From: Leptasterias polaris
Taxonomy: Eukaryota; Echinodermata; Asteroidea; Forcipulatida; Asteriidae
Direction: 5' to 3'
Assembly: GCA_037783415.1 (NCBI GenBank)
Contig: JAZGTN010000044.1
Coordinates: 4,535,501 to 4,599,500 of the forward strand
DNA: 64,000 bases
This document shows positions 3,201-54,891 of this stretch, piece after piece. Numbering within the stretch: the stretch's first letter is position 1; every line of letters starts with the position of its first letter. A program made the position numbers and the translations under genes. The notes below the pieces were generated by a model, which searched no databases, was not told where the DNA came from, and worked only from the letters and a program-made list of their open reading frames with translations.

Positions 3201-6200
3201 ATGGTGACCTTTATTTCTGGGTCAACCGGAAGTGGGACCATATCTCAAAAACTACACACCCGATTTTCAATTTCTTTTCAGTTAAACCCTTTGAGCATTA
3301 GATGTTAGACACGGGTTACCATGACCCCATGTTGACCTTCCTGGTTTAAAAGCTCCTTGCGATTCAGTATCAGAATGAAGACCAGGTTTAGGTTTTTAGG
3401 CACACTTAAGTGAAAAAAGGGCCTGTCAAAGGTCAAGAGTCTTCTATCTTGAAATCAGACCAACTTTAATTTTTCTTAGTCTTTGTTTCCACCCGGTCTT
3501 AACAGGAAGCTCACAAATTGAGGTAATCATATCTCCTGAACCACATGTCAAAGGTCGTAATGTTTGTGATTTCTTGTTTGTTATATATATATATTTTTTT
3601 TTTTATGAATCAGAAAACAGGATCAGCTCTGTGTTTGTTCACAAACATCTAATGTCTAGTTATCATTATTATTACGAAGTACCGTCGTATTAATTAATAG
3701 TCCTGATGATAGCCCGGAGAGCTGCTCTTAGGACAGACTGCGGGACTTTACATTACAAAACTGGTGCTAATATGACACCATGGGTGTTGTCACATTTAGA
3801 TACCAAAAAAAAGAATCAAAATGTACACCACATAGAATATTAAAATAACTTAATTTCTGCAAAAAACAAGTACAATAGTAATTTCTAACACCCTGTTATG
3901 TTACTTTTGATTCTCTGTTCATATCTATTTGTGACAACTTTCAATTTTAAAGGGACACGTTGCCTTGGATTGGACGAGTTGGTCTAATAAAAAGCGTTAG
4001 TAACCGTTTGTTATAAAATGCATATGGTTAGAAAGATGTTTAAAAAGTAGAATACAATGATCAACACAAATATGCCTCGAAATTGCGTGGTTTTCCTTTT
4101 ACATCGTGAACTAACACGGTCGGCCATTTTGAGGGGTGAAAAATCAAGCCTCCATGTGTGCCTAAAACAGAGAAATAGACACACTCTTATTGGAAATCAG
4201 ATCCATATAAATCTTCTAAATTTACTGGAAAAATTTCTGTAACATCGATGGTGGGGGTCCAGGGGCGAAGCCCTGGTGGGGGTCCGGGAGGGGGGGGGGC
4301 CCGGAAGCTCTGAGCTTTTGGCATTTTGAGGGGTGAAAAACCAAGCCTCCATGTGCCTAAAACAGAGAAATAGACACACTCTTATTGGAAATCAGATCCA
4401 TATAAATCTTCTAAGTTTACTGGAAACATTTCTGTAACATCGATGGTGGGGTCCAGGGGTGAGGCCCCGGCGGGGGTCCAGGGGGCGACCCTGGAAGCTC
4501 TGAACTTTTGGCATTTTGAGGGGTGAAAAATTAAGCCTCTGTGTGCCTGAAACCGAGAAATAGACACACTTTTTAAGCACTTCTGATCCATACCAATCTT
4601 CTAATTTTACTCAAAGAAAATTGTAATCCCACAAATCTCGCGTTTGGATCTGGTCGCTGCCATATCTGGTTTCATGCATGTATTCATTCAAAAAAAATAG
4701 TTCATTCATTCATTCATTCATTCATTCATATTTATTGGTCACATTGTAAAACAACATGAGACTCATCGTCCCGCAATGCAAATATACATTATAAAATTGT
4801 TTAAAAATATTACAACCACAAACAAACAAAAGAGATGTGAACTTTATAGTTAAAAGGTTTAAATAATTACTTAAAATAAAGTAAAAGCAATACCCACTGG
4901 AATGTGTATTTCAGTGGAGATACACTAAATAAATTAAAAACATAAAAACTACAAAATTACCTACTGAACTTAGAATTAAACAGATGACCAGCATTGGGTG
5001 TTGTTTTATTGCATGGAGGACGCACTCTTCCTGATTTGTTGACAGTCACTGAGGCATGGAGTGGATGGGTTGGGTCTTGCATAATGGAAAGGAATTTTAC
5101 CAGAGCAGCTGTTTCAGAATTAGTGCGGAAGTTGTTTACATTCCTATTCATTATTTTTGACACCACCTTAGTTACCCGCTCAAGCTTTTGAATGTTCTTT
5201 ATGGAAAGACTGCTGTACCAAACAACATTACAAAATGATAAAATTGATTGAATAACACTCTGATAAAAAAGGAATAAAATATCATCACGGACATTAAATG
5301 ACTTCAGCTTCCTGATAAAAAAGGTACGTTGATTAGCCTTAGCTACCAGTTTACGTGTATTAGTGTTCCACTTAAGATCGCTATCGATGTGAGTACCCGT
5401 ATTTGTATTCGGTGACCATGTCGACTGGGGTGCCCTGTATAATGATTGGTTCCAGAGTAGTGTTACCTTTGCGGAAATCAAAAACAATCTCTTTCGTTTT
5501 GTTGACATTTATAACTAAAAAGTTACGTTTACACCAATTAATAAAATTGTCCACTTCATGGCGGTATTGGGTCTCATCTTTGCAAGAAATCTTTCCAGTT
5601 AAAGCTGTGTCATCTGCATATTTAATCATACAACACGATGGGAAACTGCACCTGCAATCACCAGTGTACAATGAAAACAAAACTGGGGAGAGCACACAGC
5701 CTTGAGGGGCACCAGTATTAGTACAGATGACGTCCGACATTGAGTTCATTAAAATGTACTCTCTGTGTACGGTTAGATAAAAAACTATTAATCCACAGTG
5801 TTAAATAAGGACTAACATCCATATTTCTGAGTTTTTGTACAAGTAAATGTGGCTGTATAGTATTAAATGCCGAGGAAAAATCCACAAAAAGAGTTCAAGC
5901 TTAGTGTAGTCTTTACACTTGAATGCCAGAACAAAAAGAAATATATTTTATCCCAGGACAAATTGGCACGTCAGGTTTCAAACGCTAATGTTATCGTGCA
6001 AATCTAAGCAATTACAAGTGACATATCATGAAAGATTCATTTTGGCAGAAAGAAACAAATTTGGTAGGCATAGGATGAAAAAGAAATCCATCCTGCCGCT
6101 GGGGGAAAAGACACCACACACACGCTTGTGGCTAATTTTTAAGCAGGCAGATTTTTTCCAAATTTTACCCGGGGGGCACGTGCCCCCTGCCCCCCCCCCC

Positions 6201-27945: not shown

Positions 27946-29918
27946 TACCCAGGTAGCAAGCCCATATGGGCCAGAATATGGGCCCCATGTGGGGATAACC
28001 CATATGGGGCCCTGTGGATCCTGCACCCGGGATTCATATGGGGCCCATATGGGATGGCCCATAACCCATATGGGTCCCATATGGGGCCCACATGGGCCAA
28101 CATATGGGGCCCATATGGGTCCCATATGGGTTGGCCCAGATAACCCATCTGGGATACATCTGGGGCCCATCTGGGTTATCCCATATGGGCATTACCTGGG
28201 ATTCGTATGGGCATTCTGGACCAAAATGAGGGTCCCATATGTGGGTAGCGTACATATGGGGCCCATGTGGGGCCCATATGGGCCAGCCCAGATAGCCTTA
28301 TAATATATTCAAGTAATTCAAGTAATTATTTAATGTTAATGATAAGTCTAATTATATGAACGATTACATTACATGTATACTAATCTACAGTACCACTAAA
28401 TACAAACTATATTACTCATTTATAATATGGCGTATAAGTATATATACCTGTCCCTGCTTGGTATGTATTATATATATAGTCCACAAACTGAAGACTTACA
28501 GTCATGGTTAACAGTTTTTTAATTAAATATGTCATTATTTGAATTAGCTTGTTTTAAATGAAAGCGTCTAATTGTAAACTTTATGTATGTATTTTTCTTA
28601 TAAACGAATATCTTACAAAAAATTACAAAAACCACTTTACAGAGCTAAATTTCACTAAATTGTTTTTAAAATTAATCAAAAACACACTACTTCAATGCCC
28701 TGTCCCATAAATTTGCATATTGCCAATATGGGTTTGCCCAGGTCTTACCCATATCGTACCCATATGGGTCTTTGCATATTCTAACCCCAAAGTTTGCTTA
28801 GGTCGTGCTTATAGGATAACCAAATGAACCTTTTCATATCACTGCACACAAGGGATTGCTTAAAGGTAATTCCTATTCTTATGTGGCCCTTTCCATAAAT
28901 GTTTCATCCAAGTTTGTCCGGAGGAAATTACAAAATCCATTGGAAGGGTCATAAACCCTTGGGCTTGCTAAACTCTATTCTATTCTAAACTATAAAATTA
29001 ACCTCGTAATGGCCGAGGCCTTTCTTTGTGATATCTTTGCCCAGGTCTTTTTAATACCACCCATATGAGCCTTTCTGCCCGTATGGGATTGTCCATATTT
29101 TTCCATATTTGGTCTTTTGAATCTTCAGCCCATATGGGAATTAAATGCCCTTGTTTTCCCATATGATAACCACACGGGAGAATGTATATTTTGCCCATAT
29201 GGGCCAATTCATTTTGTGCCCACATGGGGCAATCCGTTGTTTTCCCCAAATGATACCCATATGGGACACTGCATATTTTGCCCATAATATTATGGGCTAG
29301 CCCATGTTTTCCCCATATGATACTCATATGGGCCACTGCATATTCTGCCCATATGGGAATGCCCATGTTCTCCCCATATGATACCCATATGGGACAATGC
29401 ATATTTTGCCCATATGGGATTTCCCACATTTTTCCCATATGATACCCATATGGGCCCTTGCATATTCTTCCCATATGGGCTAGCCCATGTTTTCCCCATA
29501 TGATACCCATATGGGCCACTTCATATTCTGCTCATATGGGATTGCCCACATTTTCCCCATATGATACCCATATGGGAATGCCCATGTTCTCCCCTTATAA
29601 TACCCATATGGGACAATGCATATTTTGCCCATAATTATGGGCTAGCCCATCTTTTCCCCATATGATACCCATATGGGCCACTGCATATTCTGCCCATATG
29701 GGATTGCCCATGTTCTCCCCATATGATACCCATATTGGACACTGCATATTTTGCCCATATGGGCTAGCCCATGTTTTTCCCATATGGGCCCCATATGGGA
29801 ATATTCCCCATAACCCACACCCATAAGGGCCCCATATGGGTACCATATGGGTTGGCCCAGGTCCATATGGCCCAGATATTTCCCATATGGGCCCCATATG
29901 GGCTTGCTACCTGGGTAA
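27946..29918. mobile_element. 2-kb TIR element packed with the palindrome CCCATATGGG
   Basis: The left end TACCCAGGTAGCAAGCCCATATGGG is exactly mirrored at the right end (CCCATATGGGCTTGCTACCTGGGTA). Between them I count about 29 exact copies of CCCATATGGG plus many one-base variants, in two clusters (27946-28290 and 28725-29918) separated by an AT-rich core (28290-28720). No target duplication was identified with confidence. Several frames are open through the repeats on both strands, but the peptides are low-complexity (G-P-I-W / M-G-P-Y) and not genes. Confidence 0.85.
29240..29790. repeat. About 61-bp higher-order tandem repeat
   Basis: The unit is CCCCATATGATACCC, then ATATGGGACACTGCATATT, then TTGCCCATATGGG, then a TAGCCCATG/TTGCCCATG block. 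The TGATACCC landmark falls near 29251, 29318, 29379, 29440, 29501, 29562, 29663 and 29725, mostly 61 bp apart, with one shortened unit at about 29598. Confidence 0.85.
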
Positions 29919-33962: not shown

Positions 33963-36736
33963 GTAAGTAAAATAAATAAATCTAGTCCACTTGTCAGTAC
34001 GTTAATCGTAATGTTGACATTGTTGTTGCCAGTCAACTCAAGCTGTCAAGATCAGAAGCAGAATTCATGTTTTTTTTACCTAGGAATTATAAAGTTCTAA
34101 GCAAGTAGAAGTACAGATTCTCTCATCATGATCATCGAGCAGTTTGTTAACAGCTTATCAAATGAGGTTGTCTCAGCTCCTTCCCACAATTAATCATTTC
34201 AAAATACTTTAGTAGTGTTTATAGTATACTATTAGTTAGACCCAGTAACTGGGGCGCTATACTCCTTTTTTCGAAATTTTGACATCATCGGTCGTACTAG
34301 CGCCCCAGGAAGGCGTTGCACATATCAACGGGAGTCCCTGATATCGCATCATTTTGAATACGGAAGCCACACAAAATGCCTCAGAACGACAAAATTCCCC
34401 AACAAAATAGCTTTAAAAAAGCCTACTGGTTTCTTGATATGTCTAAGATGCAACAACAGGTATTTAAATGTACTCACGATTTTGTTTTGTGCTGAAATTT
34501 TACGTTTTTTGTCCAGTCGATCGGAGAAAATGGCAATCCTGCTATTAGCAGGATCGGGTCAACTATGATCTGCGACTTTTTCATCGTCGCGATGCATTCT
34601 GGGTAGTAGATTTAATCAACGACTGTTTACAGTGAGTGCACACAGTGTGCATGGGCAATGTATTCGTCGACGGGGCGATATTGCAACGTCACAGCCCGAG
34701 GTTTCGCCAGTGTTCGTATGACTCCAGTACTCGTGTCCGTCTCGAGGCACAATTTCGGTGACTCGGACTATAAGCTGTTTTCCTTTGCATTTATTTTATT
34801 ATAAAAGATAAAACTCATACTTTTTGTGTGAGACCAATTTGTGTGTAGGCAGCCCAATTTTTTTGTACAATTTTAATTAATTTATTATTTTATTTATCTT
34901 TAGTAACTTATTTATTTATTACTAATACGCCTATTATATATTATCACAGCTTATTTATTTATTTGTTTGTTTATTATTATTATGAATATTATTAATTAAT
35001 TGTTATTATTATTATTTTGTTTTGTGGGGGGGGGGGGGGGGGGCTTCCCCAACCCCCGCCTGGCCCCTTACTAGTTAGGCCTGGGTCCATTTTCATAGAG
35101 CTTCTGTTTACGGTTTCTGCACATTTCTTTTTCTGCAAAGTGCGACTGTAAACAGTCGTTGATTAAATCTACTACCCAGAATGCATCGCGACGATGAAAA
35201 AGTCGCAGATCATAGTTGACCCGATCCTGCTAATAGCAGGATTGCCATTTTCTCCGATCGACTGGACAAAAAACGTAAAATTTCAGCACAAAACAAAATC
35301 GTGAGTACATTTAAATACCTGTTGTTGCATCTTAGACATATCAAGAAACCAGTAGGCGTTTTTAAAGCTATTTTGTTGGGGATTTTTGTCGTTCTGAGGC
35401 ATTTTGTGTGGCTTCCGTATTCAAAATGATGCGATATCAGGGACTCCCGTTGATATGTGCAACGCCTTCCTGGGGCGCTAGTACGACCGATGATGTCAAA
35501 ATTTCGAAAAAAGGAGTACAGCGCCCCAGTTACTGGGTCTAACTATTAGTATTAGTATTACCTAAACATACTGGGAAAAACCTTCATTAAATAAACAATT
35601 TTTATCTCGTTTTTAGTGCTCACCCTCGCTTTTATTTTAACTTCATTCATTGTCTGCTGATGCAGCATACCTAATGTCAATCAATGAGTGTCTTCAAAGT
35701 TTTCGACGTGACAGTCTATTAGGCATTGGCTTCCTACTGACCCAAGACTTATAGTTTTAACTTTTAGCAAGATTCTCGCAAGCAAGTTGCATGCACTGTA
35801 CTACTGCAAGCAAGCACACTCACACTGGCTCTGCCTCTGGCTGGGGGAGTCTAAAATTGGCTTTCTCTACAACAACAATTTAATGCGAATAAAATTTCAA
35901 GTAATTATACTTGTAATGTTTTGTTTAAATAAATGTTTTGTTCATATTATTGTTACTTGCTTTAAGAAGCTGAAATTTTGTTTATTTATTCTTCATGTCA
36001 TTACCTACCCACCATCTCTACAAATAATTAACAACATGTATTTGGCTCCAAAACTAGCAAGGTCCCGTAGATTGCACAACCAACGGCAACGCTCAAAGAC
36101 CAAACCGCTAGTTTTTAGAACAGATACTTCCAATCCTTCATACCCAGAACAGTTTTACTGTTTAGGACATGGAGCAAACTCCAACAGTGCAACATAGATA
36201 CCCCAAACCACAATGCTATTTTAAGAATTTCATTTAAGTTCAGTTCCACCTCCCCTCCTTGTCCTATTCCTAGAGGGCCTCCTTGTTAAACTTCCTCACG
36301 AAGTATTTTAATAGCATAGGGCTACTTTGCAACCCCCGTAGGCCTGATGGGAGTCTAGGACGCCAGCAGTCTTCCTTTGCACACTGCACTAGTCGATTAA
36401 AAGCCTCCTTCAAAAAACACATTGTCTCCCATTATGTAACATAGTTCTTATTCTTAATTCATCATCCTGGTTCAGCTGGTTTGGCGTGGTCTGTCTTGGG
36501 TTTTTTGTCTTTGTTTCTTTGTTTGTTGCATTTTTGTACTTGTTTACCTGCCCATTTTTATCCCTGTGTGATCTGTTGTTACTCTGTATTGTTTTATTAT
36601 CAAATTTTAATATTATTTGAATACTTTCCATCTTTGTTTTGTTTTGTACAATGCATCCCAGCCTACAAGCTTATTGCTTTTATTGGGTCATGCCTCCATA
36701 CTGTTTCAATCTCTATTAACTAATCATTTTTTTATT

Positions 36737-36770
<34 letters not shown>

Positions 36771-38680
36771 AGGGCCTACTTGATTTATTTACAAATAATC
36801 AGTACCTACAAATATTGATTTTCCAATAGATACAGCTTGTTGAAGCTCTTGAGACGTCACGGTGAAATTGCACAATTTGACTTCCTTTTTCACAAGACGG
36901 GACCAAGTGAGGGCAAACCAAGAGGGTATTGTTTTGTCAGCTTTAAGACTCGGGAGGTAAGGGCTTCTGTTCCTGTCTTAACCCTCACCCTCCAAAATCC
37001 TGTCTAGTTATATTCCCTCGTTGAAGAGTTCTGAAGAAAAAATTGTTGGATGATTATGTGGATGCTTGCTTGTCGCCTTAAAATTGCACTACACAGTACA
37101 AGGTTGTTTTCGAATTGGTGGCTACAGCTACGGCTACGACTGTTGCGAAAGGTGATGCTAAGGACATACATGTACTACACTTCAACGCATGGAGATCTAG
37201 CCGTAGCCACAGCTGTAGCTGCCAATTCAGACACGCCCTAACAGTGACATAAAGAGAAACTAACTTCCAAAATGGCGCAACCAAGAATTATTGTAGCGAT
37301 GGCGTCGTGTGAATCGGGTCAATTTGAACAAATACTGTTTCTTTGCCCTTAGGTGAAACTAAAAGTGTACTTGATCATAACCCAGGTATCTTGACCTAGT
37401 TGTTTTTATTTGCATTTAGGAGGCCGAACTTGCCATTCATGCTTTAGACGGTAAACTAGCTCTGAGCAAGAAACTCGCTGTGAAATGGGCCCACTCGCAG
37501 ACAGCAAGCTATAAGGTAAACATGGTAAACTGTGGTCAAGTAAATGTGCAAATTATGGCTCTATCAAAAGGAAAGACGATTTAAAGACAAAGGAGAGTAT
37601 TGGTTGTGGTTGAAAAAAAACCAAAAAAACATGGGTTTCAATTTCAGAGTAGCAATTCTCCCTAGAAATATTGCTTGAAAAGAAAATAAACAAACTTTAG
37701 CACAGTCTTACTTAAGGACACAAGTGTCAAGCCTGGGACTCAAATCCACACTCTGCTGATCAGAAACACCAGATCTTCAGTCTGGTTTGATGGACCGCTC
37801 AGCCAAATATGTTTCTTGAAAACGATAGTATTAGTACTTGTTTTGAGTTAAAGTAATCTCCCAAGAATGACCAAGTTATTGTTAAAAGACTAATTTTCAA
37901 ATTGTTTTTTAAAATTTTTGTTGGGACCAGACACAAGAACAGCAGATTGAGGAAGACAAGAATACTCTTGCCCCTGACAAGCTCCCAAGTAGCTTTGGTG
38001 GTCATCAGTCTGCAGTGGCAGGCACAAGCACGAAGAAACAGGCATGCAAAAATAGGTACATATATATGTATACAAAGCAAACAGTTTTCAGTAAATCACA
38101 ATGAAATCTTTTTGTGGTGAATGTAAGTTGCATAGGTCTTTTAAAAGGGGGTGTGTCGTCATGATCAAAGCGGCTATACAAAACAGAGCTACCACATATG
38201 ACCTAACATGAGTGATGACGTAACATGAGTGATGATGTAACATGAGTGATGACATAACATGAGTGATGACATAACATGAGTGATGACATAACATGAGTGA
38301 TGACATAACAAGGCTTTTCGCCCATCTTTCTGAAAAGCACCGGAGAAGGTTATTCAAAATGATTGGTTTTTACACAATTGAAATCTGTTTAATCCCATGT
38401 GAACTCAATTTTCTTATTGATTAAAAACATTGTAAATGAGTTTCAGCTCAAATCACTTGTTGCCGTTTTCGTTCAAGTAGGTCTTTAACATAAAATATCA
38501 ACCTGTACTTTTTTCTTTTTATTCAGCAACGATGCGAAGATCCGAGCCATCGAGAGTAAATTGAGACAGATGGAGCGTGCCAGCAATGACTTCAACATCG
38601 TTCCAACATACTCGGCTGCAAGCCAACCACCCAAAGGGAAAGCTGATACCAAACGATTCAAACCATACGACAAGAGGTGA
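33904..38680 (+). CDS. RBM18: RNA-binding protein 18 (RBM18), five exons, complete
   Basis: Joined exons 33904-33962, 36830-36956, 37420-37515, 37931-38055 and 38527-38680 give 561 nt and 186 residues with consistent phases (2, 0, 0, 2). The protein opens [20 protein letters not shown], where LWVGNI is the RNP2 motif. RGYCFVSF is RNP1, and [19 protein letters not shown] completes a single RRM (about residues 8-90). A charged tail with [14 protein letters not shown] follows. These blocks match vertebrate RBM18 (about 190 aa) closely in order and spacing. Known role: a poorly characterised nuclear RRM protein; the RNA target is not established. An out-of-frame ATG at 33899-33901 overlaps just upstream. 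Intron 1 (2.9 kb) hosts a Mutator-like element. Confidence 0.95.
34237..35541. mobile_element. Mutator-like (MULE) non-autonomous element, 9-bp duplication
   Basis: Inverted ends of about 390 bp, beginning TAGACCCAGTAACTGGGGCG and mirrored at the right, span 34237-34631 and about 35148-35541 with very high identity. ACTATTAGT flanks both sides (34228-34236 and 35542-35550). Long TIRs with a 9-bp duplication are the signature of Mutator-like elements. The unique middle is AT-rich with a G18 run at about 35026-35043 and no transposase. Confidence 0.85.
36735..36770. repeat. (GATT)n microsatellite
   Basis: A run of TGAT/GATT repeats lies in RBM18 intron 1, about 60 bp before exon 2. Confidence 0.95.
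36830..36956 (+). CDS. RBM18: RBM18 exon 2
   Basis: The acceptor is TTTCCAATAG|A and the donor GAG|GTAAGG. It encodes [20 protein letters not shown] through the RNP1 motif RGYCFVSF. Confidence 0.95.
37420..37515 (+). CDS. RBM18: RBM18 exon 3
   Basis: The acceptor is TGCATTTAG|G and the donor AAG|GTAAAC, with 32 full codons. It encodes [20 protein letters not shown] and VKWAHSQ, the last helix and strand of the RRM. Confidence 0.95.
37705..37803 (-). mobile_element. tRNA-Leu-derived SINE fragment
   Basis: The minus strand reads TTGGCTGAGCGGTCCATC, then CAGACTGAAGATCTGG, then GGATTTGAGTCCCAGG, and the tail CTTGACACTTGTGTCC, homologous to 15122-14935. It lies in RBM18 intron 3. Confidence 0.65.
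37931..38055 (+). CDS. RBM18: RBM18 exon 4
   Basis: The acceptor is GGGACCAG|ACA and the donor AAATAG|GTACAT (phase 2). It is a linker rich in Ser, Gln and Lys, the least conserved part of the protein. Confidence 0.85.
38204..38310. repeat. 17-bp tandem repeat, six copies
   Basis: TAACATGAGTGATGACA repeats six times with one or two substitutions in the first copies, in RBM18 intron 4. Confidence 0.95.
38527..38680 (+). CDS. RBM18: RBM18 exon 5 (last coding exon)
   Basis: The acceptor is TTTATTCAG|C and the stop TGA is at 38678-38680. It encodes [19 protein letters not shown] and a basic end FKPYDKR. A possible polyadenylation signal AATAAA lies at 39049-39054. Confidence 0.93.
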
Positions 38681-42558: not shown

Positions 42559-42640
42559 ATGAAGATGCGGTTTACCACGAGTCTCTGGATGGGTGTCATC
42601 CTCATCCTGTTACTGTGTGAGACAGATCTTTGTCTTGATT
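42559..42640 (+). CDS. Ig-TIR receptor exon 1: signal peptide
   Basis: ATG at 42559, then 27 codons plus one base, with donor GATT|GTAAGT. MKMRFTTSLWMGVILILLLC is a strong signal peptide. In the upstream leader an ATGTAG start-stop codon pair lies at 42464-42469, and the next in-frame ATG is codon 3. Confidence 0.9.
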
Positions 42641-45600
42641 GTAAGTTGCTATTGTTGTTTTTAGTTTTTTTAAATCCCCGGAGGAAATATTTTATTCAAT
42701 CTTCAATCAATCAGTAAACATTTATTTCCATCTCTCGAAAAACAATTACATAATACGCAAATATAAAGAAACGTACAGATGGAGGCATGGTGACGAAAGC
42801 CGAAGCTTATAAAAACATGCCTTTAAATATGTGAATACAAAAAACAAAACAGTTAGTCACGAAGAAAACAACAATTTAAAGACAAACACAAAGACAGTGA
42901 CAGGCAAACAAAGCACAGACAAGGACAGACAAACAAACACGTTCGATTGAGTAGATGAATATATGCAAAGGATGCGTTATAAAACATAATCAAGTGAGGA
43001 CCTACGGCAAAAGTGACAAGATGCATTTAAAGTAAATTTAGGCAACAAGAAATAAGATAATAAGAGCTGCAGATCGAAAAAACAATGTTACATAATGGGA
43101 AAGCAAATCCTCCTTGTAACTTTTTTTAAATCGGCCTACAGAGGATTGAGATTTGATAAACAGTCCTAGTCCATTCCAGAGACGGGGTCCATAAAAGCGC
43201 AGGGTATTCATTGCAGCGGATGTACGAGTGAATGGTACATACAAGTGATTGTGAGACCTGGTGTGATATTGGTGAATTTCATTGACACTGACGAAGTACG
43301 ATGAGAATGAGCGAGGAAGAAGATCATTAGTAAATTTGTACATTAGGATACCAGTTTGAAGTTTGTTAATATCAGCGAGTGTTAAAGTACATAATTTGGC
43401 AAACAATGGTGCCGTATGATCGCGGGGTTGAGACAGTGTGCATATGCGAATTGCTCTTTTCTGGACTCTGATTAAAGATTGGAGTTTATTAGTAGTTGTG
43501 CATGCCCAAACAATGTTACAGTAGTTCAGATAGGGAAGGATCAAAGTATTATACAGCGTGACAAGGGTGGTGCTAGGGAGAAAAGAGCGTAGCTTGGAAA
43601 GTACACCAGAGTTGCGGCTTATAACATTAGAGACGGAGGCAATGTGATGACACCAAGAAAGTTTATCATCGATGATGACACCCAAAAATTTAGTAGAATG
43701 AACCAAACTGATAGCTGTGTTATTTATCGTCACGGGTTCATGAGGGTTATATAGCCTCCCCGATTTGCTGAATAATTGGTCAAATCAAGGTTAAAGTCTC
43801 CCATCACATAACACAGCTTCCCCTCAATAGTGATCTTATTTAGGCAAGTATCAAATGAACGGAGAAAATTATCGGTAGATGTACCAGGAGCTCTGTAAAC
43901 ATTTCCAACGACAACATTACGGGCATTTTCACGCTGAATCTCAACGAACACACATTCAAAGTCCTCACATGAAGACATGAGATCGTCTCTTATGATAAAA
44001 TTCAGTTGGTCATTGATAAAAAGGGCAACTCCTCCCCCTACTCGGTTACACCGTGACGAGTGAATGAGTTGATAGTTGTTCATGTGAATAAAGGAGGGAG
44101 GAGTTTCTTTAAACCAGGTTTCAGTAAACCCATATACAGAGAAGGAAAACTTCAGAGAACAAAGGTAATCCTGGACGTTAAAGAAATGTTTACAGAGACT
44201 CCTGGTATTTAAGTAGAAAATAGAAAAATCTGCTGATGTATTGTTTACTTGATTGAAACAATCGGTGTCATAGTAAGAACAAATATCATCATCTGCCAAA
44301 ATGCTATCCTCATTTACATTAAACAAATCAAACACATTATTTTGGTGGAACATTGAAGCAAAGTACACAACCGAACTAAGTAAACAAACAAGACAAAGAA
44401 ATCAGTTAACAAAATCCAAATAATTATAAAGAAAACAAAAAGAAATCAGTTAACAAAATCCAAATAATTATAAAGAAAACAAAAGAAAAAAACGCAATTT
44501 GAAATACACAATGAGATGTGGGCGTAAGAAACGAGCTCATAAACTAAAATATAACTCAGTGAGCACCAAACAGCCATGGGCAAAACAATCATAAAGGATA
44601 AACAAGCTTGACATGAACAATGGAAATTAATAGCATAGGTAATATAAAGGCAAACAACGATTAAGCAAATTAATGTCAATAAATAAGCAAGGTAACTTAA
44701 CATGGTAAATAATGATGATGAAACAGCTGATCATTATGAAAATATTGACCAAAATCAAGATATAAAGCGAGGAAAAAATACTGTGAGCAAACTAATATAA
44801 ACAAACATACGGAAGGATCATGCAATGACTAGTGCAGCAGGATGCAATTATACTTTATAGCTGGGGGAAGACTGCTGGTGCTCCTCCATGGCCACGCCAT
44901 TTCCCAGCATAGAAGCGGTACTTTTTACCTTCTTGGTATGCCTTGCTGACTTCAGCTTTCCATCTCCGCTTTTCCTGGAGGTCTTGCCTTGTCAGGTCCT
45001 CTACACAGAAGTATGTCAGCCCCGATAGAGCTTGCCGCTGGTGCCGCAAGATTTCGAGCTTATCCTGGTAGCAGTTCAATTTGAAGAGTAGATGTTGTGG
45101 CTTACCAGAAATCTTAGGGCCGTCACGGTGGGCTCGTTCAATCTTGACATCGGTCAGGCTAAACTTGTCCCTCAGGAGAGTCTTGGTCAGGCTTAGGCAG
45201 TCTTCATCCTTTTCTTGTGGAAGGCCGATCACTCGGACATTGTTACGCCTGCTGAAACGCTCCAGCTTGTTTAGCATTTCGTTTTGGTCAACAAGCTGTT
45301 GATCTATTGATCTGACATGTTGGCACAATGACTCCAGCTCCTTCACCTTATTTTCCAGATCGTTGATACGTCGGCTTTCGAACTGAATCGATTCGTTGAA
45401 AACATGGTATAAAGATAGTCATGGTGGAAAACTTCCCATGAAATATGTTTTAGCTTGAAATGAGCGATAGTGTTTGAGAAATAAGTAAAACAATTAGTTT
45501 TAATCTTGCAAGTCAAAAACTTTTCTTTTTTAAATGTCCCACTTTTATCTTGTTACTCCAATGACCAATTGAGCTTGAACTTTCACAGTTTTTTTTTCAT

Positions 45601-48600
45601 GGGTCACATCCAGTGTGGATACTAGTCTTTGACAATTACCAATTACTCCACAAGTTAATGACCAAAAAATCAGGCTTGGTTAAAGCACTGGAGAGCTGTT
45701 GATATTATAAAACATTACTAGAAATTACCCATTTGAAGTAATGTATTTTTAGAGAAGGAGGTAATTGTTCGACCCAAAATTTGAATCTGAGAAAGGCTTC
45801 AGGCGTGGAGCCCTTCTCAGGCATCTGAAAGCACACAATTCTGTGCAACAAGGATGAATTTCTTTCATTATTTTCTTGCAATTTTGAACTTTGATGACCA
45901 ATTGAGCCCAAATTTTGTCATTCTCTCAATTCATAGTTCAATTCATAGTTCAATTTATTTCCACTCAATCATTTAAAATGACAAAATATAACATTACAGG
46001 AGAAAAAACTTATTAGATTAAGTGGAGGAGGTCTCCTAAAAGCAAGCTTGTTGGATGGAGACCCCCGAAATTTGTGTACATACGTGTCTATTTGATGTGT
46101 TCTTTTTTTAAGGTTCTGTGCAACTGGAGCCAAAATTTCTTCAACCAACAGTTGCTCGTTTGGAGCTTTCCCCTGGAAACAATGCTGAATTGATATGCGA
46201 AGTCCACCGGAATCTTAGTTCGTGCAATCTTAGACCAGGGGTAAGTCTTATTTCAGATTATTTCTGTAACTTGTAAGTGATATCAAGTCTTGCTACTATT
46301 CGGGAAGGAGGAATGACCTTTGTTAAAAGCGGACAAGCATTCAATAAAATTCAACCATGACGTCTAAAATTTAAGACAATCTCCTTCACTTTACTTTAAT
46401 CCTTCATATACAGTGTGTAATGTAACACAGCACAGTAACTAATGTGAAGGTCAAAGGTCAACACAAGGCTGGCTACCACTATGTTTACGACACACAATTC
46501 AACTAATCTCCTAAATTACAATATTTCTCTGACCCAAAGATTAAACACAAATCAATACTCGCAGAGAGTATAAATCTACCCCTCGCAGATAATCATCAAT
46601 TTAAGGAAAGCCATGCTTCCTACGAAATAGATAGAATTACCCACCAAAAATAGAAGATGTTCTTTTCCTGCTGAAAGCTAAAAATTAAAAAGAGAACAGT
46701 TAATTAAAGGTTGCAGACACAAACTGTAGGTAAGTACATATCCAAAAGAAAGTTGCATTAGGCCCAAGTATGATTGAGGGCGCACTTGCCTTTATTACAT
46801 TACTGTGTATGCATACTGAGCTTTTCTTAAAAAATCCATTTCAAAATTGTTCTATTTGTAAGATAATTTGATGAACTCCTTTAAATCTTAAAGCAGGGTT
46901 TACTTTTGGTTTGTCAAAGACCAGTAATGGTATCCTCACTTGGTGCATTCCAACGAATGCATAAAATAACAAAACTTGTGAAAAATTCAGGCCCAATTAG
47001 TCTTCTAACTTGCAAGAAAATAATGAAAGAAATAATACCCTTGTTGCAAAGAGTTGTGTGCTTTCAGATATTATTAGAAAGTCTTCATGCCTTTCTGGGA
47101 TACAAAGTTTTTGGTAAAAAAACACCTCTTTCCCTAAAGCTACATTATTTACTTTCAAAGGGGGTCATTTCTAACAATGTTTTATAATATCAACATCTCT
47201 CCAGTGCTCATTACCAAGTAAGTTTTTATGGTCATTTATTTTTGGATTAGTTACCAAAGGTTCACCCTCCCTTTAATGTTACAGTTTTCAGGAAGCTGAA
47301 AGGTTTCGTGAACCTGGACAAAGTTTAATGTCAAAACATTAGTATACGTACATCATCATGACAAGCCTTCCTTAAAAATCACTGCTTAAGCCTATTGCTG
47401 TGCATGATCTTGATATTTGTCACAAATTTCAGGAAACCTTTACTTAAAGGGGCATATTGCCTTTAGATTTGGGCACATTGGGCTTCAAAAAACATTTATC
47501 TTTAAATGAGTATGGTTTGAAAGATATTTTTAAAGTATTAATACAATGATTCACACACACAAAAACTTGAAGTTGTGTGGTTTTTGTGTAATTTCATGAC
47601 ACAAGATGGTCCACAGTTTTGTAGATCATATCCATATATTTGACTCAACAAAATGACAGACTGTATGTTACACTGTTTGTATAATTTCCAGAGGCAAATA
47701 TAATATGTGGGTTGGTTTTTTATTCTAAAGAGAGCACCTGTGTGGCTAACATGGCACTCATTGTCATGTTTGTGATTTGAGTTTGAAAATTTTGGCAAAG
47801 ACTCTCCTTCCAAATACTGCTGAGCAGAAAATGAGTGGGCACCAGTCACAATAATCCAAACTTAATGTAATTTTGGCTGGTAACCTGTGTCTGCTTAGCA
47901 ATACTTTTCTGTGCTTAGCAAGTTTTAGTGCTTGCAGGGCCCAATTTCATGGCTCTGCTTACCGTAAGCAAAGAATCGGGCGCTTACGGAAGCAGGGAAT
48001 TCTGCGCTTACGTCAAGCGTATTTCACGGGTTAGCAGGGAATTCCGCGCTTGTGCGTAGTCTACGTTAATACTAGGCATTCTACGCTTACACAGCTAGCA
48101 CAGAATTTCGGCGCTTACTCGGTAAGCGGAGAATGGTGATCGCAAGCGCCGAATTCGGTGGTAAGCAGAGCCATGAAATTGGGCCCAGGTTTTATGAAAT
48201 TGGGCTGAGGTATACCAAACTTATCCTACATGTCCTAGTCTAAATATTTGGGTGTTGAGTTTACGATGGATTCAGGAAATTTTGCCAGAGCACCTTTGAA
48301 GGGAGACAGGGCTCGATTTCACAAAGCACTTAAGTTGCATCTTAAAGGGACTCACCGGTTAACTGTTTGCGTAATTTAGTCAAGTAGAATCATAGCCAAT
48401 TATTTCTAGATGGTTTTTATTTTATTTTTACACAAAAATATCACGTAATTAACGAGAAATGACCGAAAAAAAACAAAATTGGTCAGAGGTCAGCGTATAC
48501 GCTTTACCACCCGTTGCAAGTGCAAATTTACGGGATACATGCTGCGCACTGTTGCAAGTAGACTGGTGCTCTGTTTATGTAAATGTTTTACTACGGCAAG

Positions 48601-51600
48601 GCATGAGGATCCAATCTACATGTACGTTATCCATAAAGTGTGTATAAACAACGGACACGGAAACCAGTCAACTCGCCCCCCAGCAAAGTCGCCAATTACA
48701 AAGTCACCAACTACAAAGTCTCCCCCTAGCAAAGTCACCCCCTCACATACAAACTCCCCTCCACCCCTCCCACGTTCATGGGCTTCCAGGTACTGCTATC
48801 TCTTGGCTCGGGGGTTTCCGTCGCGCTGAGCCCCGCCGAGACACTGCCAGCCAGCTACACGATTGCCCCTGTGTGACGCATAAGCTCTACATGTAGTCCC
48901 CACGCTGTGTACTGTAAAACACGCTTCCGTTACTCGGACTCTCTGAAATAAAATCTTACGTTCGATTTTTTGTAATTGTTTACAAGTTGTATCCATAATT
49001 TGAATACGTATATAATTTTCTTTTGTCAAATACTCATGAATACTTGTTAAAAAAACAGAGTTGAATTCGGTACAGTAATTAATTTTTATACGGCTGGAAG
49101 TAAAACTAACTCCAAAAATCACGAGGGTTATCCGAACAACCCATGTGACCTTCGTTTTTTGAAAAATGCTCAAAAACGGCCAAAATTGATGGTTTCTTTT
49201 AGGAACCGTTCTTCTCCATTCCTGGAAGACCTTTGGGATCATGTTTTAGTCAATTTTGTAGCCAAAATAGCCCAACGAAGCCGGTGTGTCCCTTTAAGCT
49301 GAGTTGTCAATATCACCATAGTGATTTGTATTGTGACATCACACTTTGCGTAGCAATTAAGATTGATACACAGTTAAGATCAATCTTAGCTCTTTGTGAA
49401 ATCGGCCCCAGGGTGAATTAATCTTTTCCACAATTCTGGCAGATTTTAAAATTTTATTATAATTTGTTTTCGTTTCTTTTTCACTGAAGGTTGAGCCAAA
49501 GTATGGCCTGCAGATCTGGTGGTGTAACTCAACCGACAAAAGCTGCTACGAGTCACCGCTGCCAGCGCCACTACCCCCCAATCCCCCCTTTCTGAAAATG
49601 AACCAAAGCAAAATGAAAAACGCTTCGTATTTGACGTCTACCCTAAGACTAGAAAACATGGAGGAGAGCCATGTGGGTCAGTATTACTGCGTGGCACACA
49701 GTGAAGATCAATACACTGCAGAAAGTCCGGGACACGTGGAAGTGTTTATAGACATTCAAGGTACTCCCAAGTAGTAGTCTTGGCCGATTTGCTACCTTCC
49801 GCCAAGGTTGTAATTAATAAGCATGAAACATGTAGTTCTTTTCACAAATGAGAAGTCTCCCGAATTCCGAAAAAATCTACCTCGCGGCAGTAGAATAAAT
49901 AGCAAGACAAGTTCTCAAAAGAACATAATCTTCCCAGCAATGGTGTTACCGCAAACCAAATATTACTCCCAAGCACTTTCTCCAATTCGTTTGTGTCTGT
50001 TGGTGTGTTTGTCTGTTGTTTGTCTGACTGTAAGTACAGGAACAAAAGCTTTTGCTTCACCCTAGGCCTAAATGTTGTTCTGTTTTGTGACTATTTATCC
50101 AACTTCGGTGTAAATTGATATTGTCATTTCATTACTACTTTTCAGGTTTAACATGTTATCATGTATCTTAACTTTAACTATGTTCACTTATGTATTTAAT
50201 CATGGCAACATTGAAATAAATACTGTTCGATCAGATTGTGTCAAAGCTAAAAACAAAAGATCAAGCACCAGAACAATTATGACATCAACTTAAACATTTT
50301 GTTTGAATAGTCTATCACACTCTCTTATCCATAGCAACCATTGAATGTACTTTACCCATAGCCTAGATGTCTAGGCACAATATACTGACTACTTTTATTT
50401 ATGCTATGGTTAAAACTACAACTCCCTCGGTGATCTCCGGAGTGCTTTATTTTCCCTTCGCCTTCACCTCTGAAAATAGAATGTGCTAAGGATCACCCCG
50501 GGAGTCGTAGTTTTTCAACCATAGCACTGAAAGCAATCAGTATTGTCCCAAGTTGAGGTAGTTACTAATATTTGAATCTTTCTCACTCGTTTTGTTGGCC
50601 ACCCAATTTTTACTAATTCAATTCAGTAACATTTATTTCAATGCTGTCATTGATTACAATAATGCACATTTATGTTGAAATTACACAAGTAATACATTAG
50701 CATGAGATATGATTTATATTTAGTACACAATGATTCAATAATAATCAGCAAATTAATGACAACATTTAGGTGTAAGGTTAAGCAAAATGCTTTTGTGCCC
50801 TAACCTATGGACAGACAAACATACAACCAAGGAACCGTACCAGGACAATGGACAAATGAAACAGACAAGACAGTGTGAGACAAGGCCAACACAACTTACA
50901 AGTTACACCTTATTAGTTTATGAATAAGAGTCAAGGAACTGAGCTCTTAGGTTATTAACAAACACAGATAGGGAGGTTGAAGATTTAAGAGAGTAGGCCC
51001 TATATAATAAAATCATACACCTGTATTATTTGTTCATAGACAAGTTACCGGCACGAATTACCAACTATTCCAAACCATTGACTGATGTGGTCACTGGTTC
51101 ACCACTGACGCTCAGTTGCTCAGTCGAGGGATACCCTACACCGAAAGTCCACTGGGAGAAGGACAGCAAACTAATCCCTGGCTATGAAAATAACACATAC
51201 TTTGTGAAGAATGCCACGTTGGACGACGCAGGGATCTATGTCTGCATTGCCCAGAATGACAATGAAGTGAGGTCTGGAGAAATGTTGGTAAAAGTGAAAG
51301 CGATTCACCGTGAAAGTAAGTGTATAATCTGTTGTTGAAACTTGAATTAGTTTTAAAAGCCATGGTAGGCCCTATATAATATTTGATACTGATCATACAT
51401 ATGGCACTATGGATACGTTTGGTAATTACTCAAAGTATATAATTAGCATAAAAACTTACTTGGTGACGAGCAACGGAGAGCTGTTGATAGTATAAAACAT
51501 TGTGAGAAACCACTCCCTCTGAAGTAACGTAGTTTTTGAGAATGAGGTAATTTCTCACTTAAATATTTGAATCTGAAAAAGACTTCAGGCCTGAAGCCTT

Positions 51601-54600
51601 TTTCAGGCATCTAAAAGCACACAAATGTTTGCAACAAGGGTGTTTTTTCTTTCATTATTATCTTGCAACTTCAATGACCAATTGAGCCCAAATTTTCACA
51701 GGTTTGTTACTCTATGCATATGTTGGGAAACACCAAGTGAGAATACTGGTACAGTATTTGACAATTACCAAACGTGTCCAGTGCCTTTAAATTGGAAGTT
51801 TTACTTTATTTTCTGTGTATTTGGTATTTAATATTTATTGTTGTTACTGTGGTTGTTTTGTGTTTTTAATGTTTCCAGTTGCCATTGGAATACAATTTAT
51901 ATCTGATTTTAATGCAGACATAATAAAGAAATATAATCATACACTGTAATCATAATATTTATTTATTTATCGGCTGCAATTCGCACATACATGTATCAGC
52001 CTGCAATTCGTGCGTATCACAGCCCGATAGGCTAGCTGTGGCCAAGGATTCAAGTCTTTTCTTTCAACTCGTGCAAATATCTCAACTTCAAATAAATTCA
52101 GTTGGGACGTTTAATCAGTTAACCGCTTGAAGGGAAAGGTATACGTTTGGTAATCATTCTTAAAATTAATGGCAATAAAAACTTACTCGGTTACAGTGTT
52201 TTGCTGAGAGGTCTCCCCAGGGTAAACAAGAAATAAATAGGAACTAAAAGTAAACCTTTTAGGAAAACAAAGTACTATTAAAGGAGGTATACGTTGGGTT
52301 ATCACTCTTAAATTTAATGGCAATAAAAACGTATTAATTAGAAGTACAGCAGCTTTTGATAGTATAAAGCATTTTGAGAAACATTTCAAGAAATGTGGTT
52401 ATGTAAAAAGTTGTTTTCACCCCAAAATTTGAATCTGAGAAACATTTCTGTGTGAAACATCTCAGATTGTGTATTCCTATCATTGGGGATTATTCTTCCT
52501 GCAAGGACATATCTGTCCGGATTTTTGGCGATTTATCTCAAAAACGCGACCACCTTTTGAATTTGTATATATTTACATGTAGGATTAAAACAATCGAACG
52601 TTCCAAAAACCAAAGGTATACTTTGCCTTTAATGTCCCCCCCAAATACACACACAAAGGACCTCTAGCATCTGTGACAGATTTTCTTCTTGTGATTTGTT
52701 TTATCTAGATGACATGGCACTGACAGTGCTCCTTATTTGTGTAGCGGTAGCTTGCATTGTCTGCCTCTTGCTCATCACCTGGCGATTCCACAGTAAGTCA
52801 AGTGCCTGATCCCCTTCACAGAAATAAAAGTGGGCTTGCCGCAAGCTGGGCCCAGATTCATAGAGCTGCTTAGAGGGACCTTCATTGTCATTTGAGGGTT
52901 TTTCCCCACAATAAACACCAAATAGATCTGGAAACTTGCCCATCACCCTCCACTCTCGATCTGAAGCTTTCAACAAATAATAAACAATGTGGAGACCGAC
53001 CTTGTCTGCCATGACATGACCTTGACTGGTTTTTTTCAAACAGGCAGAGAACAATTATTTTGTAAAATGCTGCGAAGTGTCCCATTATTGCCCATATTAG
53101 GACTCCCATATTAAATTTGGGAGCGTCACGACAGTATACGAACCCACAACTTCGTCATTCTACAATGTGCTAGAGCAGACCGTTGAGATTGCCCTGTAGC
53201 TCAGTAGAGGCAGTCCGAATCTTCTATTTTATGGAAGGGTGAAACAAAATAATATATTTATTATGTTTTAAAAATGTTTTTGCAGAGATGTATCAGAAGG
53301 GTCAATGCTGCCAAATGAACAACATCTCCATCATTGGGGATAACAACCATACGGTCCATGCGAACCATATCCACGTAATCCATCAGGCCCCAACTGCACA
53401 TCGAACTTGTAAGTTGACAGTGTTGCTATGTCATGTGATTAGGGATACGCTGTTGTTGAACAACCTTAAGATTTTAGTCATGGCTCCAAGACGCTCCAGT
53501 TGTGTAAAGCATGTGGTCACAAAACCTAACTGCTATCTAAACTGCCAACACCGTACCCCACAAACCACTCGCCACTTCATTCCTGTAATTTTAAATCACA
53601 GAACGTCTTGGGAAGTTTGCAGAATCTTTCCTGCTTCGATAGCGGCCTTCAGGATGTGATAGCAGTCGCAAGAATGCTAGCACCCACTAGTGACGAGTGG
53701 TTCGTGGGAACTTCGTGGGGTGATGGCCAATTAGAGATAGTGATTAGGTGTTCGTGACTACACACCTGGAACCAAGACTACCTTGATATACATGATATAA
53801 GATGGGCAAACTCTGGTACTGTTGTTACACACACAAAATACACATTCATATATAGAATTAAACCTGAACTGTTGATCAAGGACTTAATAGGGACCGTATT
53901 TTCCCGTCCCACTACCAGGAATAGATGCTCTGTAGTCACTTACTCTACCTTTTGTCATTGGATTCAATCGCCCGTAACTTTATAGCATGTACTTGGCGTA
54001 TTCCCCTTCATTGCATCTGATAAAGTTTGGTTTATCACGAAAGCCGATGCTTTTAACAATTTTTTTAAAACTTAGTCTTAAAGCGCCACCACTATCTTCC
54101 TTTGTACATGTAGATAGTGGTGCACATTGCGCCACAGCACATTGTTAACCATTACAAGGTGCTATTTAAAGGAATAGCTAGGTCTCATACTTCAAAAATA
54201 CTGAATACTGACTGTTTAAAGCACCTTGAGCGTCACCGAGTGACAGATATGAGTGCTAAAAAAGAAGCCACTATTATTATATTTAATACAACACAATTAT
54301 AATACACCGATCTCTATACTTCATGTCAACTCATTCTCTGCATATCATATGATTTATTTCACATCGCCAACACTTCCCATCTCACTCCTGGCACCTCGAC
54401 TAAAAATCACAGCTACGCATCAAGAGCGGCGGTCATTTCTACATTTGCATGATGTATTCATTCACAACCACAGCGCCGACGTCCACTTTGCTGAGTTGAT
54501 CCGCTCCAGGCTCCAAGAGCGAGAGAGCCACCTCAACATCGGCTTGTGGTCCGAGGTGGAGCGACCCGACCGCTCGTCCAGCCGCTGCAAGCTCCTGCGT

Positions 54601-54891
54601 CTTCGCCTCCTCAACTGCTCTCGCATCGTGATCATCACCTCCGAGGACTACCTGAAACACACCTACCATAGCTTCACAAGCGCTGTGGTTAAAAGTCGAG
54701 TCAGCTCCGAGTCCATCAGAAGAAAGTTGATTGTCGTCCGGGTTCTGGAGGAGGACAAGATACCGAGGAGTCTCACTCAAGATATAATGGCGTCTCTCGA
54801 TTATAACGTTGAAACCGATAGTTGCTACTTTTGGCCGAGGTTCATGACAGTTGCCATACCAGAACAGAGTGAAATACTCTACTGGGCGTAA
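42559..54891 (+). CDS. Ig-Ig-TM-TIR receptor (IL-1R/SIGIRR-like) with RHIM-like linker, seven exons, complete
   Basis: Exons 42559-42640, 46113-46240, 49490-49760, 51040-51315, 52709-52792, 53286-53408 and 54413-54891 join in frame to 1443 nt, 480 residues. Domains: signal peptide 1-26; Ig1 about 29-157 (Cys56-Cys137, Trp80/81); Ig2 about 162-248 (Cys187-Cys229, Trp199, DDAGIYVC); transmembrane helix 257-276; cytosolic linker 281-321 containing NNISIIGDNNHTV; TIR about 332-475. TIR box 1 is HDVFIHN and box 3 contains FW (461-462); box 2 is divergent (SEVERPDRSS instead of RDxxPG). Ig plus TIR on one type I membrane protein is the IL-1R/SIGIRR plan, so a role in innate immune signalling at the cell surface is inferred. 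The linker motif is the unusual part. Ligand and adaptors are unknown. Confidence 0.9.
42690..45400 (-). mobile_element. CR1/L2-group LINE with ORF1, endonuclease and RT tail; RT core deleted
   Basis: Minus strand, 5' to 3'. ORF1 (45346-44855) has a coiled-coil start and an L1-type RRM region (RRNNVRVIGLPQEKDEDC, then IERAHRDGPK and KPQHLLFKLN). The AP-endonuclease N-terminus (44368-43750) shows FSIFYLNTRSLCKHF, YGFTETWFK, GGGVALFI and YVMGDFNLDL. The frame then jumps at about 43733 straight into the RT thumb (STKFLGVIIDDKLSW, YLNYCNIVWA, LRFYGPRLWNGL). The endonuclease end and the RT fingers/palm, including the catalytic Asp pair, are missing. It lies in receptor intron 1. Confidence 0.88.
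44397..44484. repeat. 44-bp direct duplication inside the LINE
   Basis: GAAATCAGTTAACAAAATCC followed by AAATAATTATAAAGAAAAC occurs twice head-to-tail between ORF1 and the endonuclease frame. Confidence 0.95.
45401..45940. mobile_element. Juxtaposed fragments of TTAA-type MITEs
   Basis: GGTGGAAAACTTCCC near 45424 matches 18015, and 45600-45930 reads the GGCACTG family in reverse (GAGAGCTGTTGATATTATAAAACATT, TTTCTTTCATTATTTTCTTGC). The LINE ORF1 frame is cut here. Confidence 0.6.
46113..46240 (+). CDS. Ig-TIR receptor exon 2: first half of Ig1
   Basis: The acceptor is TTTTTTTAAG|GT and the donor GGG|GTAAGT, phase 1 to 0. It encodes VARLELSPGNNAELICEV, the B-strand cysteine of Ig1 (Cys56). 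Confidence 0.88.
46888..47276. mobile_element. TTAA-type MITE (GGCACTG family), diverged
   Basis: TTAA sites at 46888 and 47273 flank AGCAGGGTTTACTTTTGG and CCAAAGGTTCACCCTCCC. Family markers CAAAGACCAGTAATGG and ATCAACATCTCTCCAGTGCTC lie inside. It is in receptor intron 2. Confidence 0.78.
47440..47660. mobile_element. Diverged arm of the 22560-type foldback MITE
   Basis: TTAAAGGGGCATATTGCCTTTAGATTTGGGC, GAGTATGGTTTGAAAGATATTTTTAAAG and TTGACTCAACAAAATG follow the order of the 22560-22755 arm. Confidence 0.55.
47937..48186. mobile_element. 250-bp GGGCCCAATTTCATGG MITE
   Basis: GGGCCCAATTTCATGGCTCTGCTTACCG mirrors GGTAAGCAGAGCCATGAAATTGGGCCC at the other end. The interior is rich in GCGCTTAC/GTAAGCG repeats. 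It appears inserted in an older, related GCTTAGCA-type element (47830-47936 and 48187-48206). Confidence 0.85.
48309..49410. mobile_element. GGGCTCGATTTCAC MITE split by a TTAA element
   Basis: The left end GGGCTCGATTTCACAAAGCACTTAAG is the mirror of the right end CTTAGCTCTTTGTGAAATCGGCCCC. The middle is occupied by the 956-bp TTAA element. Confidence 0.75.
48342..49297. mobile_element. 956-bp TTAA element (TTAAAGGGAC ends)
   Basis: TTAAAGGGACTCACCGG at the left mirrors CCGGTGTGTCCCTTTAA at the right. The interior includes a degenerate tandem of ACAAAGTCNCC units at 48675-48740. No transposase frame is recognised. Confidence 0.72.
49490..49760 (+). CDS. Ig-TIR receptor exon 3: second half of Ig1
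   Basis: The acceptor is TTTCACTGAAG|GTT and the donor CAAG|GTACTC (phase 1). It encodes LQIWWCNSTDKSCYES, a proline-rich insertion, and the F strand VGQYYCVAHS. Extra cysteines 65, 82 and 89 could form a second disulfide. Confidence 0.9.
50375..50555. mobile_element. 180-bp foldback MITE
   Basis: TACTGACTACTTTTATTTATGCTATGGTTAAAACTACAACTCCC mirrors GGGAGTCGTAGTTTTTCAACCATAGCACTGAAAGCAATCAGTA. It lies in receptor intron 3. Confidence 0.75.
51040..51315 (+). CDS. Ig-TIR receptor exon 4: Ig2
   Basis: The acceptor is TGTTCATAG|AC and the donor GAAA|GTAAGT, phase 1-1, one exon for one I-set-like Ig domain: VTGSPLTLSCSVEGYPTPKV, HWEKDS, then TLDDAGIYVCIAQND. Confidence 0.93.
51401..51790. mobile_element. 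TTAA-type MITE (GGCACTG family)
   Basis: The left end is degraded (GGCACTATGGATACGTTTGG) and the right end is intact (CAAACGTGTCCAGTGCCTTTAA). The interior matches 30655-31025 closely. It is 86 bp after the Ig2 exon donor. Confidence 0.85.
52123..52632. mobile_element. TTAA-type MITE, composite, with duplicated left end
   Basis: The left-end sequence AGGTATACGTTTGGTAATCA-ATTAATGGCAATAAAAAC occurs at about 52137 and again at about 52285. A single right end reads CCAAAGGTATACTTTGCCTTTAA. It lies 76 bp before the transmembrane exon. Confidence 0.7.
52709..52792 (+). CDS. Ig-TIR receptor exon 5: transmembrane segment
   Basis: The acceptor is TTTTATCTAG|AT and the donor CACA|GTAAGT, phase 1-1, 84 nt. 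It encodes ALTVLLICVAVACIVCLLLI followed by TWRFHK, a single helix with a basic cytosolic stop-transfer end. Confidence 0.9.
53286..53408 (+). CDS. Ig-TIR receptor exon 6: linker with RHIM/amyloid-like segment
   Basis: The acceptor is TTTTTGCAG|AG and the donor ACTT|GTAAGT, phase 1-1, 123 nt (41 residues, 281-321). NNISIIGDNNHTV followed by HANHIHVIH gives two short beta-prone stretches around G-D-N-N. The RHIM core consensus is (I/V)-Q-(I/L/V)-G-x-x-N-x-(M/L/I). Here the hydrophobic before G, the G and the N at +3 match; the Q and the last hydrophobic do not. A cryptic RHIM-like or other amyloid signalling motif is inference. Cys288-Cys289 might be palmitoylated. Confidence 0.85.
54413..54891 (+). 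CDS. Ig-TIR receptor exon 7: TIR domain
   Basis: The acceptor AAAATCACAG|CT gives the correct phase; the stop TAA is at 54889-54891. Visible elements are LHLHDVFIHNHSADVHFAEL (box 1 and helix A), then LNIGLWSEVERPDRSSS (strand B and BB-loop region), NCSRIVIITSEDYLKHTYHS (strand C and helix C), RRKLIVVRVLEED (strand D) and CYFWPRF (box 3). The conserved BB-loop Pro-Gly and the NADase-type catalytic Glu/WC pattern are not seen, which suggests a scaffold rather than an enzyme. Confidence 0.9.

Follow-up and report, generated by a model that had tools for sequence, protein, structure and literature searches.

The window, by which we mean the whole stretch of 64,000 nucleotides of Leptasterias polaris DNA analysed here, carries a receptor gene that has been little studied, and both the gene and its exon 6, which encodes NNISIIGDNNHTVHANHIHV in the stretch that separates a hydrophobic span from a likely TIR domain, are real. 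Our best guess is that the product is a lineage-specific Ig-TIR receptor with a tail segment that would help to align clustered receptors. Tentatively, and at a confidence that stops well short of probable, we suggest that the alternating segment of the exon 6 linker forms a beta-arch-like element which would help clustered tails to line up and would favour TIR assembly. This reading is nearly tied with one in which the linker is a passive spacer, and next comes one in which the segment is a strand that docks onto a different protein.

Gene model and layout of the receptor

Joining exons from the window gave a model of seven exons that encodes 480 residues followed by a stop codon; all six introns run GT...AG and the phases are consistent. 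Exon 1 (42559..42640, + strand; residues 1-27) starts with an ATG and a signal-peptide-like hydrophobic stretch and ends in a GT donor whose phase fits exon 2; the Asterias amurensis protein begins alike, and AF2 places a helix at 3-20 in the orthologue P0001. The first Ig domain is divided between exon 2 (46113..46240, +; 5' half, aligned with P0001-P0003) and exon 3 (49490..49760, +; 3' half, V-set-like), both with AG/GT flanks and fitting phase, and the V-set profile scores 31.3 bits on the whole protein with its best stretch at 77-155. Exon 4 (51040..51315, +) encodes the second Ig domain (Pfam Ig_2 E 1e-15, Ig_3 E 4.4e-15), and exon 5 (52709..52792, +) a predicted transmembrane span, residues 253-280, seen as a hydrophobic run in the translation and as an AF2 helix at 253-285 in P0001. 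Exon 6 (53286..53408, +), with 41 codons, AG/GT flanks and phase 1 at either end, encodes the juxtamembrane residues 281-321, and exon 7 (54413..54891, +) the divergent TIR domain and the stop codon. Signal peptide and span were called by inspection and AF2. All elements of an Ig-TIR (IL-1R-like) receptor, that is signal peptide, Ig domains, one span and a cytoplasmic TIR, are found in one reading frame, and the predicted order is a signal-peptide-like start, two Ig domains, a hydrophobic span, the exon 6 segment and the divergent TIR. The position of exon 6 and the Ig-TM-segment-TIR layout given in the original prediction are thereby borne out, the A. amurensis protein aligning over its full length with the exon junctions included. 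Two further features of this region are that exon 6 is symmetric and could be skipped with the frame left intact, and that a Cys just inside the membrane (C288) is invariant in all four species and could be lipidated.

The closest protein is that of A. amurensis (order Forcipulatida), with 78% identity across the whole length, followed by Patiria miniata isoform X2 (49% over 94% of the length) and the protein of Acanthaster planci, a member of the Valvatida (45% over 99%). These three sea-star relatives cover 94-100% of the receptor; the fourth match, frog MUC18 (E 3e-4), covers 35% of the query. The P. miniata record has a later start and no visible signal peptide. A protein search limited to the exon returned no candidate, and as it missed the orthologues too it is uninformative on absence.

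The exon 7 domain is identified as a likely TIR by profile and fold. Pfam TIR_2 matches the whole protein at E 0.00099 with 20.0 bits (cut-off 28) and four of the four orthologues at E <= 10 (best 1.4e-5), a PDB profile search has the TIR of MyD88 as its best match (E 0.018), and Foldseek finds TIR matches from E 1.3e-4; the nearest TIRs are those of MyD88, SIGIRR and TRAM. In the PDB search with the full alignment the best 60 of 1226 matches all fall in the Ig part, and NCBIfam has no match for exon 6 or the TIR. A weak alignment with MyD88 (E 0.027) sets a window Thr opposite a MyD88 Gln; this Thr (T410) is invariant in all four species, and its column is one which we take to be the position of the catalytic Glu that NADase TIRs such as SARM1 have in a motif of the W-x-x-x-E type. 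A search with the TIR region retained 3 proteins of 90 candidates, all of them sea-star relatives, under a requirement for shared 5-residue words by which distant relatives can be missed.

Like the invertebrate Ig-TIR receptors (sponge, Nematostella NvIL-1R1-3) and the vertebrate IL-1R family, the receptor combines an Ig ectodomain with a cytoplasmic TIR, and NvIL-1R3 is likewise described with two predicted Ig domains, perhaps incomplete (PMC6208332, PMC1896004). It differs from this family in its TIR, which has diverged so far that it is missing from the 31 Pfam TIR (PF01582) matches at E 0.01 in its own genome (assembly of 629.7 Mb in 334 contigs), and in the separate patterned exon between span and TIR, a difference for which exons were compared at ten loci of that genome. 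Among the other TIR loci of the genome are multi-copy TIR exons that start at TIR profile position ~44-45 (L032, L033, L035 and L036 on contig C101, 3.21-3.39 Mb; L034 on C111; more on C73). Since the translated exons of L032, L034 and L036 carry SEWCRYE and an Ig-like frame lies beside L036, this group may represent canonical Ig-TIR receptors that have expanded locally.

The remainder of the window holds several repeats. Two LINE-like stretches (by eye; 43041-44401 and 44858-45418, both on the - strand), with no match to a Pfam transposon family, lie inside intron 1 of the receptor gene, and a LINE-like fragment at 5384-5800 (-) matches Pfam RVT_1 at 3e-13. Near-identical sequences in opposite orientation at 34236-34565 (+) and 35213-35542 (-), each open for 110 codons, form an inverted-repeat element. 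Tandem arrays rich in CCCATATGGG, with periods of e.g. 11, 61 and 162 bp and long open frames, occupy 28065-29800, and a 130-bp tandem repeat of 4.6 copies lies at 2740-3339. By eye, exons at ~36830-38680 (+) resemble those of an RBM18-type RRM protein.

The exon 6 segment in four sea stars

Exon 6 contains the pattern I-x-I-x-G-x-N-x3-V-x-A-x2-I-x-V. Numbered from its glycine (position 0), the segment reads NISIIGDNNHTVHANHIHVIH in the window, NISIIGNNSTAIQANTVTVVH in A. amurensis and RTTIRGNNSKVIKADTVHVHS in A. planci, where the gapped alignment columns put R at +15. In P. miniata it consists of RISIRGDN, a six-column gap, which the aligner places after GDN, and NVVHRH, and it reads GDNN when ungapped. 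I at -2, G at 0 and N at +2 are invariant in all four species, and the three ungapped ones also keep V/I at +6, A at +8, I/V at +11 and V at +13. Two of the relatives, A. amurensis and A. planci, retain the alternation, and in P. miniata the segment is six residues shorter. The original prediction had been staked on conservation of the turn among orthologues, and G-[DN]-N is indeed kept in four of four.

How well is the segment conserved relative to the rest of the receptor? Between window and A. amurensis the segment, taken as residues 292-310, has 9/19 identities, as compared to 139/154 in the TIR, 106/133 in Ig1, 67/92 in Ig2, 19/28 in the membrane exon and 12/16 in the linker after the segment; only residues 281-291 (5/11) are lower, which places the segment next to last in this closest pair. 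Such a value would be in keeping with a passive spacer, a reading in which exon 6 supplies a disordered juxtamembrane linker that owes its pattern partly to chance and partly to shared descent, and in which the TIR alone signals. Across orders the segment has 5/19 identities with A. planci and 8/13 with P. miniata, where six more residues are gapped. It is a fast-evolving segment with a partly kept skeleton, since across orders it lies above the linker that follows it (3/16 with A. planci, 2/16 with P. miniata) and far below the TIR (106/152 and 103/152, respectively).

The conserved residues are unevenly distributed. We divided the segment into inner positions (-4, -2, 0, +2, +6, +8, +11 and +13) and 12 outer positions, two faces picked after inspection of the alignment, and counted a position as conserved when it was identical or showed an exchange among V, I, L and M; P. 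miniata, six of whose columns are gaps, was omitted from the count. Conserved positions numbered 8/8 inner and 5/12 outer between window and A. amurensis (Fisher 0.010), 7/8 and 3/12 between A. amurensis and A. planci (Fisher 0.010), and 7/8 and 1/12 between window and A. planci (Fisher 0.0008, for faces picked post hoc), the remaining linker being conserved at 6/26 in the latter pair. It is this last comparison that sits badly with a spacer. One-sided conservation is also expected from a strand that docks onto a partner.

Sorted by residue type, hydrophobic positions are better kept than others in window/A. amurensis (9/9 vs 4/11) and window/A. planci (6/9 vs 2/11) and weakly so in A. amurensis/A. 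planci (6/10 vs 4/10), and the P. miniata pairs are without a clear split (4/7 vs 5/7 with the window, 4/7 vs 3/7 with A. amurensis, 3/4 vs 5/10 with A. planci), as a spacer would have it. Because the Ig domains keep their hydrophobic residues better as well (31/46 vs 29/81 for Ig1 of window and A. planci), the segment may be a structured or binding surface, and the count does not speak for amyloid in particular. The pattern [VIL].[VIL].G.N...[VI].[AGVI] arose in 6 of 20000 shuffles of the exon peptide and in 4 of 20000 shuffles of the tail, fractions that overstate its significance since the pattern was written after the sequence had been seen. When ten of the 31 TIR loci (L027-L036, ~1.5 kb on each side) were scanned in six frames by regular expression, over flanks that could miss distant exons, there was a single occurrence of the longer pattern away from the window locus, in a part of L029 that is leucine-rich-repeat-like by eye. 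The alternation is compatible with a beta-arch-like element, and its resemblance to an amyloid signalling motif stops short of proof.

RHIM and amyloid motifs

The segment had been likened to RHIM and cryptic RHIM (cRHIM) cores. The RHIM core is the tetrad V/I-Q-V/I-G, and in RIPK3 the variants TQIG or VQSG already abolish NF-kB activation, though not cell death (PMC12119088). Insect cRHIMs tolerate loss of the Q, those of mosquitoes retaining V and G of the core (PMC9531809). At the tetrad the sea-star proteins have SIIG (window), SIIG (A. amurensis), SIRG (P. miniata) and TIRG (A. planci), and the tetrad is thus absent in all four. The original prediction was right about the G, the hydrophobic residue before it, the N at +3 and the mismatch at Q, and it missed the first tetrad position (-3), which is S, S, S and T in the same order and never I or V. 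Of the two core residues retained by mosquito cRHIMs the G is present in all four species and the V in none. The likeness amounts to weak resemblance, [VIL]G..N arising in 798 of 20000 shuffles of the 41-residue exon peptide (~4%) and in 667 of 20000 shuffles of the 200-residue tail. Nor is the N at +3, which had been read as a match to the RHIM consensus, constant: A. amurensis and A. planci have S there, and the ungapped GDNN of P. miniata has the N.

Profile searches agree with this. Pfam RHIM (PF12721) matched neither the 74-residue exon reading frame nor the four proteins at E up to 10, in a search in which matches that are both very short and weak may be lost to the HMMER filters. In the six frames of the 629.7-Mb genome it had no match over the cut-off. 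Three sub-threshold matches elsewhere (L002-L004), with open frames of 39, 75 and 47 residues and a stop in one, were treated as chance for a search of this size. With the tetrad absent, no Pfam match, the conserved Asn at +2 and Ser in place of the +3 Asn in two species, we reject RHIM identity.

The likeness to RHIM (RIPK1, RIPK3, TRIF, ZBP1) and insect cRHIM (PGRP-LC, PGRP-LE, IMD) that remains is one of form: about 20 residues, a Gly-Asn turn between beta-type stretches, and a place within the disordered sequence of a protein of innate immunity; TRIF, moreover, has both a TIR and a RHIM (PMC12119088, PMC12133306). Unlike a RHIM, the segment lacks the tetrad, has its hydrophobic residues at -4/-2 instead of -3/-1 and its invariant Asn at +2 instead of +3, and sits in a TIR-bearing membrane receptor. 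Fungal PP and bacterial BASS motifs (the latter by description) are likewise short, contain Gly and Asn and lie beside a signalling domain, which in bacteria can be a TIR, though less often (PMC7889193). The segment differs from PP in having no NxGxQxGxN core (PMC9815663), and from both in belonging to an animal membrane receptor and in that no matching motif was found in a second gene. A search of the genome with the 41-residue window peptide found the peptide itself and 21 weak matches, none of them a further copy of the motif: 20 belong to a single dispersed repeat family that has no G-x-N turn, and one contains an internal stop. The repeat family (L007-L026) is almost identical throughout, has the typical peptide RSHCSVLNLVSISNFHNETIVINHRTVFHGAPAAHIT and is open at 20 places. 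Alignment of the motif with PDB sequences and tblastn of the exon against phage records gave no match.

Amyloid signalling motifs are described as about 20 residues long, at least some of them forming a beta arch (PMC8086366), and RHIM-type motifs as disordered prior to assembly (PMC12133306). The linker is predicted to be disordered too, with an AF2 pLDDT of 28-29 for residues 291-330 of P0001, which suits a spacer as well. In the 20 residues from -5 the number of charges is 1 in the window and 0 in A. amurensis, 5 in A. planci and 7 in P. miniata, whose stretch runs beyond the shortened segment; the charged copies disfavour in-register stacking in the latter two species and are easier to accept for a docking strand. 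The claim of two beta-prone stretches is only weakly true. On the Chou-Fasman scale the motif marks the start of the best 20-mer in three of the four species, and the value of that 20-mer is reached by 2247 (window), 376 (A. amurensis), 1768 (A. planci) and 628 (P. miniata) of 5000 shuffles of the linker and is not above shuffles, again as for a spacer. A positive result from a generic amyloid predictor would mean little here, because in one study ArchCandy is reported to have flagged 61% of a negative set as against 50% of bacterial positives (PMC8086366).

Readings of the juxtamembrane segment

If the segment does stack, a ligand would cluster the Ig ectodomains, and neighbouring tails would stack on each other by way of the patterned segment, giving either a true amyloid or a small beta-assembly. 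The TIR domains, with an apparent Thr in the column that we take to be that of the NADase catalytic Glu, would then scaffold a MyD88-type adaptor and not act as an enzyme. This is consistent with the seven-exon model and its phases, the relatives in three sea stars, the inner/outer split in three of four species, the low charge in window and A. amurensis, and the length, predicted disorder, alternation and TIR adjacency of the segment. Against it stand the shortening in P. miniata and the lack of a hydrophobic/other split in its pairs, the charged copies in Valvatida, the shuffle-level beta propensity, the low identity of the segment in the closest pair, the choice of the two faces after inspection and the failure to find a second copy.

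The passive spacer, with the disorder, low identity, shortening in P. miniata and shuffle-level propensity given above in its favour and the window/A. planci split against it, is scarcely the less plausible of the two. Somewhat behind it we place the docking strand, a short linear motif that would pair as a beta-strand with a cytoplasmic partner and not with itself. It accords with the search that found no second copy in the genome, as its partner would be unlike it. Then again, no candidate partner protein was identified, and two strands with a Gly-Asn turn would exceed what most docking strands need.

A stronger form of stacking strikes us as improbable, namely that the symmetric exon between membrane and TIR of a transmembrane immune receptor encodes a private amyloid signalling motif, unlike RHIM, on which ligand clustering nucleates a beta-stack that switches on the TIR in an all-or-none manner, exon splicing setting whether the switch exists. 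Least credible by far is a genuine or cryptic RHIM that would assemble into amyloid together with RHIM-bearing partners in the same cell: the window's G, +3 N and hydrophobic residue at -1 and the tolerance of cRHIMs for loss of Q (PMC9531809) are outweighed by the missing tetrad with its S or T for the V of mosquito cRHIMs, the +3 Ser in two of four species, the Pfam results and the report that RIPK1 homologues were not found in echinoderms (PMC12119088).

What would self-stacking of the tail mean for the receptor? The amyloid signalling proteins named for animals in the accounts cited here are a few cytoplasmic proteins and proteins of the insect peptidoglycan pathway, and none of the titles and abstract openings searched, in a mostly open literature, describes a receptor of the order Ig-TM-amyloid motif-TIR. 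Should the tail of this TIR receptor stack with itself, a single molecule would join receptor clustering and amyloid nucleation in one step. Were the segment no more than a docking strand, a patterned exon preserved between the Asterias-type and Acanthaster copies amid drifting surroundings would still mark an unstudied control point in echinoderm immunity.
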